Below, in pieces: positions 21,632-36,325 of a DNA stretch of 37,877 bases. Made by a program: the position numbers and the translations under genes. Below the pieces are notes generated by a model. That model worked only from the letters and a program-made list of their open reading frames with translations, was not told the DNA's origin and made no database searches. Within the stretch, counting starts at the first letter, position 1; each line of letters begins with the position of its first letter. The DNA comes from Fidelibacterota bacterium (GTDB lineage Bacteria > Fidelibacterota > Fidelibacteria > Fidelibacterales > Fidelibacteraceae): assembly GCA_018400915.1 (NCBI GenBank), contig JAGYLW010000006.1, positions 1-37,877 on the forward strand. Reading direction: 5' to 3'.

Positions 21632-21662
21632 AAAAAAAGCCGTCCCCATCGGACGGCTTTTT
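21632..21662. terminator. Strong bidirectional intrinsic terminator
   Basis: A run of A, then GCCGTCC (21639-21645), loop CCATC, GGACGGC (21651-21657) and a T run. The flanking A and T tracts let it work in both directions. It ends the secreted-protein operon and could also stop the convergent membrane-protein gene at 21730. Confidence 0.9.
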
Positions 21663-21729
21663 CATTTTCCCCTGCGCTTTTCCCGGGAGGATACTGCTTT
21701 GCAATTCAGATTCCGAAGCGCACTTCGCG

Positions 21730-26727: not shown

Positions 26728-26800
26728 GTGGATGTAGCTCAGTTGGTAGAGCGCTTGGTTGTGGCCCAAGTGGTCGTGGGTTCAAGTCCCATCATTCACC
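26728..26800 (+). tRNA. tRNA-His (anticodon GTG)
   Basis: The acceptor stem GTGGATG pairs with CATTCAC (one G-T pair). The anticodon loop is TTGTGGC between CTTGG and CCAAG, and the T arm is GTGGG-TTCAAGT-CCCAT. A G precedes the stem (26727) and the discriminator is C, giving the G-1:C73 identity pair of tRNA-His. CCA is not encoded. Confidence 0.95.
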
Positions 26801-26847
26801 CTTCCGGGGCCTTGCGCCCCGATTTCACCAGACAGCAAAATGTCCGG

Positions 26848-26922
26848 CGGGGCGTGGCGCAGCCCGGTTAGCGCGCCTGCTTTGGGAGCAGGAAGTCGGA
26901 AGTTCAAATCTTCTCGCCCCGA
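26848..26922 (+). tRNA. tRNA-Pro (anticodon TGG)
   Basis: The acceptor stem is CGGGGCG/CGCCCCG, the D arm GCGC-AGCCCGGTTA-GCGC, the anticodon arm CCTGC-TTTGGGA-GCAGG with TGG, the T arm GGAAG-TTCAAAT-CTTCT (G-T pair), and the discriminator A. It lies 47 bp after tRNA-His. CCA is not encoded. Confidence 0.95.
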
Positions 26923-26927
26923 CATGA

Positions 26928-27001
26928 GCCCCGATAGCTCAATTGGATAGAGCAACGGTCTTCTAAACCGTAGGCTACAGGTTCGATTCCTGTTCGGGGT
27001 A
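26928..27001 (+). tRNA. tRNA-Arg (anticodon TCT)
   Basis: The acceptor stem GCCCCGA pairs with TCGGGGT (terminal G-T). The anticodon arm is ACGGT-CTTCTAA-ACCGT with TCT, the T arm ACAGG-TTCGATT-CCTGT, and the discriminator A. Only 5 bp separate it from tRNA-Pro, so the three form one transcript. CCA is not encoded. Confidence 0.95.
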
Positions 27002-27090: not shown

Positions 27091-27116
27091 AAAAAGCCCG
27101 CTGTGCTCAGCGGGCT
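27091..27116 (-). terminator. Intrinsic terminator of the ferritin-like gene
   Basis: AGCCCGCTG (27095-27103), loop TGCT, CAGCGGGCT (27108-27116) form a 9-bp perfect stem. The A-run at 27091-27095 becomes the U-tract only on the minus strand. It therefore terminates the gene at 27148-27660; on the plus strand the tRNA transcript would get the hairpin without a U-tract. Confidence 0.85.
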
Positions 27117-27147
27117 CTGTGTATTTCCATTCATAAAACGGGATCAT

Positions 27148-31437: not shown

Positions 31438-33479
31438 TCGAGACACTGGACAAAAAACGGGATCCTTATTCATTTCGCGCGGGCGTGGTCAGCACGGTGA
31501 TCCTTGTATTTGTATTCATCGTGGTGGCAAAGCTCGCCGCCATCCAGCTCCTTGATTCCGAAAATCTGCGCGGGTACGCGGACAGTCAGGGAATGCGCTC
31601 GGAAGATATCCTTCCGGAGCGGGGACTGATCCTGGACCGCAACAACAAGGTCCTTGCCAACAATATCATTGAATACACGATCGGTGCACGCTATGTGGAC
31701 CTTCTTGAGCCTGAAAATGCTTTCCGGTCACTGGCAAAAGCCTTTGACAAGACCACGGCATACTACCGTGATCAATTCAAGAAAGAGACCAATTTTTATA
31801 TCCTGGAAACCGGTGTGCGCCCCGAGATCGCCGAAAAACTGCAGTCGGACAAGGCATGTCACGGCCTGAAATACGATAAGAAAATGAGCCGTTTTTATCC
31901 CTATAAGGATGCCGCCGGGCAGATACTGGGGTTTCTCTGGGAGGACGGCTCCGGCCAGGCGGGAATTGAAAAGTACTATGAAAGCGTGTTGCGGGGCGAA
32001 AAAGGGTTTAAGGTGATCCAGCGGGACAAACGGGGTTCGGTGGTATCTGCTTACGGGGATATCAAGGCCCGGCCGGCCGTTCCCGGAGGCAACGTCCAGT
32101 TAACGATCAATATCGACTATCAGATCATCCTGGAAGAGGAAATTGCGAAAACGGTGAAAAAGCACAAAGGCAAAAGCGGGATGGGAGTGATCATGGACCC
32201 CCGCACCGGCGAGGTCCTGGCAATGGCCAATTATCCATCCTTCGATCCGAATCAGGTCCGGAATTCTTCCCCCGACATCCGCCGCAACCGTGTGATCGCC
32301 GACCAGTTCGAGCCCGGTTCGGTCTTCAAGTTCATTCCGGCTTCGGCGGCACTGGAAAACAAGGTCTTTACTCCGTCAAGCCGCATTTTTTGCGAGAACG
32401 GCGACTGGAAGGTCAGGGATCGTATTATTCATGATACAAAGCCGCATGAGTGGCTGACACTGGAAGAGATCATTATTTATTCCTCCAATATCGGTGCGGG
32501 CAAGATCGCACAGCAGGTAGGCGACCAGGCGATCTATGAGATGGCAAGAAAGTTCGGTTTCGGTGAAGCAACGGCCGTGGGGCTCTGGGGGGAAAGCGAC
32601 GGTCTCCTGAAAACACCGGACAAATGGAGCAGTGTGGGATTTTCACAGCTGGCCATGGGGCACGGAGTGACCTCCACGCTCATGCAGCTGGTCAATGCGT
32701 ATGCGGCGATATCAAACGGCGGGACCCTGCTGAAACCCTATATCGTTTCCACCGCATTTAATGAAAAAGGTAAGGTGATCCGGGAGTCCGACGTCTATCC
32801 GGTCCGCAGGGTCATCAGCGGGAACACTTCGGAGATCCTGCGATACATCCTTGAAAAGGTCGTGGAAGAGGGGACCGGGACCCGTGCCCGTATCGAGAAG
32901 TATCACGTTGCCGGGAAAACCGGGACCGCACAGAAGGTCGTTGACGGCAAATATTCAAATTCCAAATACTATGCCAGCTTTATCGGTTTTTTCCCGGCGA
33001 ACGACCCCGTCATGGTCTGCGGCATTGTGATCGACGAACCTGCCTACGGCCTGCATCACGGCGGGACTGCCGCAGCCCCCGCAGTGAAGGAGACCTTTAC
33101 CCGTATCATCAATATGCGTGATTTCAATACTATTTACCGGTCTCTGCCGAAACCCGATACGGAGCCGGTCGCGAAGAATGATGCTGCTTCTCCGGGACTT
33201 CTGCTGTCCATGCTGCACCGTTCGCAGAGGTCTCCGGATTTCCCGGAGGAACGCACGGAAAGCCCGGATGAGAACACAACGGACCTCCGGGAAGAACTTT
33301 ACGATATCATCATGCCCGACGTTGTGGGAATGCATATCCTGAATGCCGAGAAAAACCTGAAAGCGACCGGCCTCAGCGTCGAGCGCAATGCTTCGCGGGG
33401 AAAGGTCGGCTATCAATATCCTCCGCCCGGAACCTATCTGAAGGAAAATGCGTCTTGCCGCCTGGAGGTGCATTCATGA
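31434..33479 (+). CDS. ftsI: Division transpeptidase FtsI (PBP3-type) with C-terminal PASTA domain
   Basis: This class B penicillin-binding protein (681 residues) cross-links septal peptidoglycan with FtsW. It has an N-terminal membrane anchor (~17-38) and a dimerisation domain with PERGLILDRNNKVLA. The transpeptidase domain carries Ser296-x-x-Lys299 (EPGSVFKF), the SSN motif at 349-351 and Lys494-Thr-Gly-Thr (AGKTGTAQK). After a linker (~590-625) comes one PASTA domain (~626-681, MPDVVGMHILNAEKNLKATGL). The E. coli enzyme lacks PASTA, but such domains occur in FCB and Gram-positive division PBPs. Its ATG overlaps the ftsL stop and its own stop overlaps the murE start. Confidence 0.97.
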   Translation: MIETLDKKRDPYSFRAGVVSTVILVFVFIVVAKLAAIQLLDSENLRGYADSQGMRSEDILPERGLILDRNNKVLANNIIEYTIGARYVDLLEPENAFRSLAKAFDKTTAYYRDQFKKETNFYILETGVRPEIAEKLQSDKACHGLKYDKKMSRFYPYKDAAGQILGFLWEDGSGQAGIEKYYESVLRGEKGFKVIQRDKRGSVVSAYGDIKARPAVPGGNVQLTINIDYQIILEEEIAKTVKKHKGKSGMGVIMDPRTGEVLAMANYPSFDPNQVRNSSPDIRRNRVIADQFEPGSVFKFIPASAALENKVFTPSSRIFCENGDWKVRDRIIHDTKPHEWLTLEEIIIYSSNIGAGKIAQQVGDQAIYEMARKFGFGEATAVGLWGESDGLLKTPDKWSSVGFSQLAMGHGVTSTLMQLVNAYAAISNGGTLLKPYIVSTAFNEKGKVIRESDVYPVRRVISGNTSEILRYILEKVVEEGTGTRARIEKYHVAGKTGTAQKVVDGKYSNSKYYASFIGFFPANDPVMVCGIVIDEPAYGLHHGGTAAAPAVKETFTRIINMRDFNTIYRSLPKPDTEPVAKNDAASPGLLLSMLHRSQRSPDFPEERTESPDENTTDLREELYDIIMPDVVGMHILNAEKNLKATGLSVERNASRGKVGYQYPPPGTYLKENASCRLEVHS

Positions 33480-34924
33480 AATATCTCAGCGAACTGCTGA
33501 AACACCTTCAGCAGCCTTACTACTACGAGGGTCCCGATCCCCGGATCCGGGATGTTGTCTACGACTCCCGTATGGCGGGAAAAGATGCGCTTTTTGTGGC
33601 CGTCAGGGGATACCGGACGGATGGGCATACCTACATTTTCAGCGCTTATCAGAACGGAGCGACCGCCTGCGTTGTCGAGAAACCGGTTGACTGCCCCGTT
33701 CCCCAGATCGTGGTGAACGACAGCAGAAGCGCCCTTGCGGACCTGAGCCACGCACTTTACCACTCGCAGCCTCTCCCCTTCCCCCTGCTCGGCATCACCG
33801 GCACGAACGGAAAGACCACGATGACCCATCTTCTGTACCAGCTTGCGGAAAGCAGCGGATCCAGCCCGGCCCTCATCGGCACACTCGGAGCCCGGAGTGC
33901 AGGCCGTTACAGGGATGAAGCCCGCACCACTCCTGAAAGCCGCGATCTCGCACTGCTCTTCCGCCGCTTTGAACGGGAATACACCACCGCGGTATTTATG
34001 GAAGTCTCCTCACACGCCATTGCGCTTCAGCGGATCCACGGACTGCTTTTCGATTCCGCCGTTTTTACGAACCTCAGCCGGGATCATCTTGATTTTCATA
34101 CCGATATGGAGGCGTATTTCCAGACAAAAGCGCGGTTGTTCCGTCAGCTCCGCCCGGGAGGCGTCAGCATCGTCAATACCGGCGATGCCTACGGAAAACG
34201 TCTGTACGACCTGATAAGCACGGAGAAAATATCTTACGCAGTGCATGATGCAAATGCGGACTTCCATTTCTCGGAACTGTCCGTGAACATTCACGGCGTG
34301 CGCGGTGTACTGAACACCCCGGCCGGTGCCTTTCGCGTGGATTCGCCCCTGCTGGGTACCTTTAACGCTGAAAACATCTGCGGGAGCATCGCCGCATGGC
34401 TACAGCTTTTCCCCGGAAAAAACGCCATCGTTGATAATTTTCCCTTCCGTCCGGTGGACGGCCGGATGGAAATGATCAAAAGCTCCCGGGGCACCGCCGT
34501 GATCGATTATGCACACACGCCGGATGCCATGGAAAAAGCGCTGAACGCCGCCTCCCGCCTGAGCGGACGCAAGCGTATCATTACGGTCTTCGGCTGCGGT
34601 GGCGACCGTGACCGTGAAAAAAGGCCCATGATGGGCAGGATCGCGGAAGCCGGTTCGGATATCATCATTCTCACAAACGATAATCCGCGCAGAGAGGACC
34701 CGCGGCAGATCGCGGAAAATATTCTATCCGGGATCGCAAACAGGGAAAAAACGGAGATCTGCCTCGACCGTAAGGAAGCCCTGAAGAAAGCTTACGGATA
34801 CTCTGAGAAGGGGGATATTATCATGATCCTGGGGAAGGGAGCGGAAAAGTATATGGAGATCAGGGGGGAAATGATCCCCTTTAATGATAAATCGGTCATA
34901 AACGAAATGGAGAGACACAAGTAA
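33476..34924 (+). CDS. murE: UDP-MurNAc-L-Ala-D-Glu:meso-diaminopimelate ligase MurE
   Basis: This ATP-dependent cytoplasmic ligase adds the third peptide residue of the peptidoglycan precursor. The start is the ATG at 33476 overlapping the ftsI stop, with GGAGGTG upstream, giving 482 residues; the ORF-track start is 7 codons earlier inside ftsI. Landmarks are the ATP loop GITGTNGKTT (~106-115), ARTTPES, MEVSSHAIALQRI with the carbamylated-lysine region following, and DYAHTPDAMEKAL. The amino-acid-selecting DNPR (~402) indicates meso-diaminopimelate rather than lysine. It is followed by an unusual intergenic hairpin. Confidence 0.97.
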   Translation: MKYLSELLKHLQQPYYYEGPDPRIRDVVYDSRMAGKDALFVAVRGYRTDGHTYIFSAYQNGATACVVEKPVDCPVPQIVVNDSRSALADLSHALYHSQPLPFPLLGITGTNGKTTMTHLLYQLAESSGSSPALIGTLGARSAGRYRDEARTTPESRDLALLFRRFEREYTTAVFMEVSSHAIALQRIHGLLFDSAVFTNLSRDHLDFHTDMEAYFQTKARLFRQLRPGGVSIVNTGDAYGKRLYDLISTEKISYAVHDANADFHFSELSVNIHGVRGVLNTPAGAFRVDSPLLGTFNAENICGSIAAWLQLFPGKNAIVDNFPFRPVDGRMEMIKSSRGTAVIDYAHTPDAMEKALNAASRLSGRKRIITVFGCGGDRDREKRPMMGRIAEAGSDIIILTNDNPRREDPRQIAENILSGIANREKTEICLDRKEALKKAYGYSEKGDIIMILGKGAEKYMEIRGEMIPFNDKSVINEMERHK

Positions 34925-34933
34925 CCCTCTACC

Positions 34934-34967
34934 ACCCCGGTGCGGAGAGCCCTCTCCGTACCGGGGT
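34934..34967 (+). other. 15-bp stem-loop between murE and murF
   Basis: ACCCCGGTGCGGAGA (34934-34948), loop GCCC, TCTCCGTACCGGGGT (34953-34967) form a near-perfect RNA stem, with one G-U pair. It fills the 51-bp gap almost completely and ends 8 nt before the murF ATG. There is no T-tract after it, so it is not a standard terminator; RNA processing, stability or control of murF translation are possible. Confidence 0.85.
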
Positions 34968-34975
34968 TCCTAAAA

Positions 34976-36325
34976 ATGATGAAAACGCAACAGTTACATC
35001 ACGGTCCCTTTACGCTGCGCAATATCCGCTTCGCTTTTTTCCGCGGTGTCAGTATTGATTCCCGCAATATTCCCGAAACCCACATTTTCTGCGCACTGAA
35101 GGGGGAACACACGGACGGCCACCGTTTTGTCAGGGATGCGCTGGACAATGGTGCGCTGGCGGCCGTGGTGGACCGTGATTATGCTGAAAAAGCGGATCCG
35201 CGGGATCCGCTGATCATTGTGGACGACACCTATCAGGGCCTGAAGGATATGGCGGCCGTGTATGCACACAGTCTGAACGTACCGGTCTTTGCGATCACCG
35301 GAAGTGCCGGAAAGACCTCAAGCCGCCGGCTGCTTGCGGAGGTCCTGCGTTCGGAAATGATCATTGCCGAAAGCCCGAGGAATTTTAACAACCACATCGG
35401 CCTTCCGCTGGCCGTCCTGCAGATCAGGGGCGATGAGGATATTGCCATTCTGGAGATGGGAATGTCCGCCCTGGGTGAGATCCGTGAACTCTGCGGCATT
35501 ATTCCGCCGGACTACGGACTGATCACGGTCATTGCACACGCCCATATCGGCGGACTCGGGTCCATCGGGAACGTCCAGAAAGCAAAATTCGAGCTTTTTG
35601 ATTCGGTGAAGGATGACGGCATTCTCTTTCTCAATCTCGATGACCCCCGCATCGCCGCTTATCCGGAGGACAGGCGCAGGCGGATAAGCTTCTCCCTGGA
35701 GAAGCCGGGGGATTTCACCCTGCGCATATGCTCCGTTGATGAGAACGGCTGTTATACCCTGAATGCGGAGGGCGCACGGTTGCGTCTCAACGCTCCCGGC
35801 AGGGGTGCCGCAAGCAATGCCGCCGCCGTGTACGCCGCGGCGCGAAGCCTGGGGATGGACCGCGACAGCATTGTCAGACAGATCGAGCATTCCTCTCCTT
35901 CCGCCGGCCGCGGCCGCATCGACAGCTGGCGTGGGGTCAGCATCATCGATGATACCTACAATGCCAATCCTCTGTCGGTCAAAAACGCCGTTGACGCCCT
36001 GCAGGCAATGCAGGTATCCGGGAAAAAGATCATGGTCTTCGGCGACATGCTGGAAATGGGTGCCGAATCCCGCTCCAGTCACGAGACCGTCGCCGGACAG
36101 CTTGCGGTTGCGGGGGTCCGCTGCCTCCTCTGCTACGGCGAAGCAAGCCGCCACACGGCGGAAAAGGCCCGGAAGCTGGGACTGGACGACGTAAAACATT
36201 TCAGCAGTAAACAAAAACTGGCGGAGGAACTGGCCGGTATCGTTAAAGCCGGAGATGCGGTGTTGTTCAAGGGGTCACGCGGCATGGCGATGGAAGACGT
36301 TATCTCCATAATGAAGGGAATGTAA
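34976..36325 (+). CDS. murF: UDP-MurNAc-tripeptide:D-alanyl-D-alanine ligase MurF
   Basis: This ligase adds D-Ala-D-Ala to finish the UDP-MurNAc pentapeptide. I start at ATG 34976 (449 residues), because the GTG at 34940 in the ORF track lies inside the hairpin; ATG 34979 is equally possible. Family features are FRGVSIDSRNI, LKGEHTDGHRFV, the ATP loop GSAGKTSSRRLL (~109), FNNHIGLPLAVL, EMGMSALGEI, and the MurF-specific IIDDTYNANPLSV (~325). The ribosome site is poor and follows the stem-loop directly, so translation may depend on RNA structure or coupling. mraY begins 1 nt after its stop. Confidence 0.96.
   Translation: MMKTQQLHHGPFTLRNIRFAFFRGVSIDSRNIPETHIFCALKGEHTDGHRFVRDALDNGALAAVVDRDYAEKADPRDPLIIVDDTYQGLKDMAAVYAHSLNVPVFAITGSAGKTSSRRLLAEVLRSEMIIAESPRNFNNHIGLPLAVLQIRGDEDIAILEMGMSALGEIRELCGIIPPDYGLITVIAHAHIGGLGSIGNVQKAKFELFDSVKDDGILFLNLDDPRIAAYPEDRRRRISFSLEKPGDFTLRICSVDENGCYTLNAEGARLRLNAPGRGAASNAAAVYAAARSLGMDRDSIVRQIEHSSPSAGRGRIDSWRGVSIIDDTYNANPLSVKNAVDALQAMQVSGKKIMVFGDMLEMGAESRSSHETVAGQLAVAGVRCLLCYGEASRHTAEKARKLGLDDVKHFSSKQKLAEELAGIVKAGDAVLFKGSRGMAMEDVISIMKGM

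Follow-up and report, generated by a model that had tools for sequence, protein, structure and literature searches.

Stable mRNA structures lying just 3' of a stop codon, known as ribosome termination structures (RTSs), have been described as a generic class found at 18-65% of genes, without a common motif and depleted within operons (Chemla et al. 2020, PMC7518266). Their computational definition combines a gap of at least 25 nt with an unbroken run of five or more 40-nt windows of negative dLFE, starting between -10 and +20, one of which must have a dG no higher than -6 kcal/mol; in a synthetic E. coli operon, the class lowers reinitiation (PMC7518266). Strong hairpins without a U-tract also occur between operon genes in cip-cel of C. 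cellulolyticum (PMC4423207) and between malE and malF of E. coli (PMC5927463), where they could set unequal expression, the protection at malE-malF being limited to the upstream gene (PMC5927463). A candidate cis-acting RNA with a dcw-linked name, the mraW RNA motif (Rfam RF01746), is confined to Actinomycetales (PMC2864571).

Here we analyse a hairpin between the cell-wall genes murE and murF in a window of 37,877 nt (contig JAGYLW010000006.1), taken from the 1.72-Mb draft assembly of a Fidelibacterota bacterium. Like the RTSs, it is a stable structure that closely follows a stop codon and occupies a gap longer than 25 nt, but it lies inside an operon and its sequence and flanks are frozen. 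It has the anatomy of the cip-cel and malE-malF hairpins and could likewise set unequal expression; it differs in belonging to a cell-wall operon, in being single-copy with near-invariant sequence and flanks, and in showing no processing site in its sequence. With the mraW motif it shares candidate status, a dcw link and restriction to one lineage, but lineage and gene are different and RF01746 gives no match. Intrinsic terminators have a similar GC-rich stem and small loop, whereas this hairpin has no U-tract and is directly followed by murF on the same strand. The kind of element is known, while the murE-murF instance, like its unusual sequence constraint, appears to be new to the literature searched, where we found no paper treating a hairpin between murE and murF, nor any evident one about regulatory RNA in Marinimicrobia.

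The murE-murF junction and its hairpin

The dcw operon is one of the most rigidly packed in bacteria. In the window its order is mraZ, rsmH, ftsL, ftsI, murE, murF, mraY, murD, with the identities of murE, murF, mraY and rsmH confirmed by NCBIfam. The murE gene (UDP-MurNAc-tripeptide synthetase; 33476-34924, + strand; NF001126/TIGR01085 above cut-off) ends in TAA at 34922-34924, 51 nt before the first possible murF start, an ATG at 34976. Homology (ATGAARAC) makes the second ATG, at 34979, more likely to be the true start, in which case murF spans 34979-36325 (+ strand; TIGR01143 above cut-off, and alignment) and the gap is 54 nt. The remaining junctions measure -25 to +7 nt from mraZ through murE and at murF-mraY, and +10 nt from mraY to murD. 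A sequence-only reading of this DNA had singled out the murE-murF gap of 51 bp among junctions that overlap or leave at most 10 bp, and the measurements agree: it is the sole long gap of the operon in the window. The arrangement holds across the eight genomes of the genus with enough flanking sequence for comparison, where the murE-murF gap is 51-63 nt and the other measured junctions range from -25 to +8 nt. A GTG at 34940, in frame inside the stem, would add 13 codons to murF relative to the ATG at 34979; it occurs in this genome only and is probably unused. We rejected a coding spacer, with murF extended from this GTG, as gap lengths in relatives do not keep a common frame and the GTG itself lacks conservation.

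Folding of 34900-35000 reproduces the earlier reading to the nucleotide: at 34934-34967 it predicts a stem of 15 bp, free of mismatches, and a 4-nt loop. The arms lie at 34934-34948 and 34953-34967 on the + strand, and the loop (34949-34952) varies in sequence, reaching 6 nt in G005. The fold energy of the region is -38.5 kcal/mol (z = -6.9), equalled by none of 200 dinucleotide shuffles; the full hairpin, at about -31 kcal/mol, is favoured in every fold prediction made. No longer bulge-free stem exists on either strand of the whole window. Because stems of at least 15 bp were found in 3 of 30 Markov windows, or about one random window in ten, length alone proves little, and the case for the hairpin rests on conservation, which excludes chance.

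The stem is directly followed by TTCCTAAAAATG, which bears out the earlier remark that no U-tract is present. We rejected an intrinsic terminator on this ground, and the hairpin is not among the terminator-like sites detected in the window. Hairpins with T-rich tails, resembling ordinary intrinsic terminators, the usual form in the window, were seen at 21633-21663, where both strands have such a tail, and at 27093-27118; three consecutive tRNA genes occupy 26728-27001 on the + strand.

The two genes differ in their ribosome sites. That of murE, within the upstream ftsI (33455-33475), is a strong TGGAGGT kept in all eight genus genomes compared, with anti-SD energies of -10.5 to -12.9 kcal/mol. 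For murF the energies are only about -4 to -6.4 kcal/mol, in line with the poor site noted earlier, and the weak SD match, in G000 and most relatives, is a GGGG at the base of the stem. In every genome 10 nt or more separate the murE stop from the stem, which can therefore form during ribosome termination; it lies 12-14 nt upstream of the homologous murF AUG (34979 here).

Conservation, distribution and origin

The genus consists of uncultured bacteria, and the sample comprised ten of its genomes, all drafts and apparently metagenome-derived. The sequence-only reading had named a stem not conserved in relatives, together with uniform RNA coverage, as a refutation. The stem is conserved: the hairpin is present, in one copy, at the murE-murF junction of all nine genomes that contain this junction, and the tenth assembly has neither murE nor murF. 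With a covariance model trained on these nine, the other 236 of the 245 genomes searched in the phylum were without a match at E<=0.05, though its filters may lose weak matches, and a search of the family (19 genomes) found no element outside the genus. At E<=1 the model hit only the murE-murF site in genus genomes. Extra copies sought across the genus with a half-site pattern, the covariance model and the core palindrome yielded mostly coding matches or unrelated intergenic hairpins, and no regulon. We thus rejected a REP/BIME or MITE repeat, there being one copy per genome rather than many, and a regulon-wide protein-binding hairpin, no further copies lying upstream of other genes in the genus genomes. 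A collection-wide scan returned 8 Neomarinimicrobiota records and 11 from unrelated taxa, the latter close to the 9 that we estimate would be expected by chance. Scanned viral contigs held no element, and Rfam gave no match at the element at gathering score, nor at E<=5 over related loci. One intergenic hairpin, GCGGAGAGGGCTCTCCG, near position 1001 of locus L128 (G006:C64:480-2500), carries the core of the murE-murF hairpin on the opposite strand with no common flanks, probably by coincidence.

In the sister genera, murF begins 11 nt inside murE (4 genomes, 2 genera), and in other members of the phylum the two genes mostly overlap or abut; the spacer of 51-63 nt is therefore derived in this genus. 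A gap of at least 136 nt with different hairpins, including CCCCGAAACTTTGGGG, separates murE and murF at about 1284-1500 of locus L024, from a different family of the phylum (G060), and is possibly an independent insulated junction. The murE-murF hairpin itself is a candidate cis-acting intercistronic element, absent from Rfam and confined to one genus among the collections searched.

Its conservation is of an unusual kind. Over 37 positions covering the 5' flank and both arms, mean pairwise identity in eight genomes is 92%, against 35%, close to saturation, at fourfold-degenerate positions in the two flanking genes, murE and murF. Of the 37 columns, 28 do not vary at all, a count that no 37-nt window of either coding alignment reaches. 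The element, as judged from these alignments, is conserved far beyond the needs of a plain stem. The 5' flank AACCCTCTAC (34923-34932) is invariant, and is retained in G001 and G007 despite a stop codon shifted upstream; the 3' flank TCCTAAAAA (34968-34976), the landing zone of murF, is kept in seven genomes and replaced by TCCTTGGAA in G001 and G007. The conserved element probably also includes a TGGAG in the last murE codons (34908-34912, + strand), which is identical in all nine genomes in an extended alignment analysed with RNAalifold and contains the sole all-GAG column among the 19 all-Glu columns of murE and murF. This motif could pair with CTCTA (34927-34931) in a 5-bp helix around the stop codon; neither side varies, hence the helix has no covariation support.

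Compensatory changes, which the sequence-only reading expected of a conserved stem, proved nearly absent. One of 14 pairs changes from G-C to A-U, in G003 and G005; the covariation score, although higher than that of slid structures, was matched by 66 of 500 shuffles, and the signal is weak because the primary sequence hardly changes. Of the seven changes confined to one side of the stem, five result in a G.U pair when read as + strand RNA, a bias that is not significant and leans towards RNA on that strand, while an A-C mismatch slightly weakens the stem in G006 and G008. Since the primary sequence itself is near-invariant, frozen letters with so little compensation point to a partner that reads the sequence more than to a bare helix.

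Candidate functions of the hairpin

The sequence-only reading offered three roles for the helix, namely RNA processing or stability, binding of a regulatory protein, and translational control of murF, and it is borne out in part. The reading we tentatively prefer, at somewhat less than even confidence, is that the hairpin acts as an intercistronic RNA insulator uncoupling murF from murE translation, its sequence being held by a putative partner. Ancestrally, the two genes overlapped and were presumably coupled through termination-reinitiation. In the genus this overlap gave way to a spacer with a very stable hairpin just past the footprint of a ribosome at the murE stop. The hairpin would block post-termination ribosomes from murF, whose start, poor in SD sequence, would then depend on initiation of its own; murF, and perhaps later genes too, could thereby be expressed at a level differing from that of mraZ-murE. 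A partner with sequence specificity, for instance an RNA-binding protein, might tune this step, as the frozen stem and flanks imply.

Several observations are consistent with insulation, beginning with the single-copy hairpin at the same place in nine of nine scorable genomes. The spacer exceeds the 25-nt gap of the RTS definition in the eight genomes compared, 13-16 of the 16 windows sampled have negative dLFE in each of them (sampling every 2 nt, mononucleotide permutations), and the minimum dG is -26.3 to -31.1 kcal/mol against a threshold of -6. Furthermore, in E. coli and H. volcanii (Haloferax), coupling all but disappears once some 20 nt lie between two genes (PMC10666635). Against insulation, murF is presumably essential, yet has a barrier ahead of it and a weak ribosome site. 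Nor can insulation alone explain the frozen sequence, because RTSs have no general sequence motif (PMC7518266); it is this excess that calls for an additional sequence-specific partner.

Processing or stabilization of the mRNA is a rather unlikely alternative, yet one with precedents. The transcript would be cut near the hairpin, which would then guard mraZ-murE at its 3' end, or murF-mraY at its 5' end, against exonucleases and so set unequal transcript levels. A similar element is reportedly known from puf. The feature looked for in selective RNA processing and stabilization, an upstream operon gene whose 3' end carries a stable stem-loop, is present here and is also the anatomy of the Clostridium cellulolyticum operon (PMC4423207); the malE-malF case is comparable (PMC5927463), and the lack of a U-tract and a stem energy of about -30 kcal/mol fit. 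However, exonuclease protection requires stability, not near-invariant sequence and flanks, and no processing site is visible in the sequence.

The same invariance could be that of a DNA operator, in which a dyad of 30-34 bp would bind a dimeric protein at an internal murF promoter or serve a nucleoid or chromosome function. Sequence conservation of both arms, near-perfect symmetry, little covariation and a single site per genome all agree with such a site, which we nevertheless consider unlikely. The junction has no promoter-like match, the dyad stands only 12-14 nt from the AUG, and the genus-wide searches gave no second site that would make a regulon. The conserved flanks, asymmetric and outside the dyad, also count against a simple DNA dyad. 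There is no GC-skew switch of the dif or terminus type, on which ground we rejected a replication terminus or dif-type site.

A more specific proposal, and a distinctly improbable one, gives the hairpin a dedicated regulator, possibly a protein sensing peptidoglycan-precursor supply, that would recognise it and toggle murF translation within the dcw mRNA. Still less probable is attenuation or an RNA switch, in which CUCUACC, located past the stop, would compete for the 5' arm or pair with TGGAG. Translation of the murE end would then govern both hairpin formation and the stopping of RNA polymerase or Rho ahead of murF. The invariant UGGAG, CUCUA and GGAGA are indeed able to pair in mutually exclusive ways, the leader is C-rich, and in the predicted fold of partial nascent RNA CUCUACC pairs weakly with the 5' arm, at -5.6 kcal/mol. 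The full hairpin, at -31 kcal/mol, is far more stable and tops every prediction, the U-tract is absent, and the 5-bp helix, being invariant, brings no covariation in favour of a switch.

Perfect palindromes can persist through template-switch correction and REP elements are frequent among intercistronic palindromes, yet a functionless spacer or the relic of a mobile palindrome (REP, MITE) is hardly credible for a single-copy hairpin at an orthologous position, frozen in sequence while synonymous sites are saturated.

Significance for the genus

The comparative evidence suggests that the hairpin is a control element separating murE and murF expression in this genus. The simplest reading is that a presumably coupled overlap was replaced with an insulated junction, since the spacer has the dimensions and predicted structure of an RTS, some 20 nt nearly abolishes coupling elsewhere, and the SD of murF is weak next to the GGAGGT of murE. 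The frozen sequence needs something beyond insulation, most likely a sequence-specific partner. If the precursor-sensing regulator were real, it would give this genus, unlike its relatives, a means of control at the step from tripeptide to pentapeptide. The genus broke an overlapping gene pair, then held the new spacer near-constant through saturating divergence. The junction thereby offers a clean natural test of how an insulated junction replaces termination-reinitiation, and bears on the question whether such hairpins require a sequence-specific partner.
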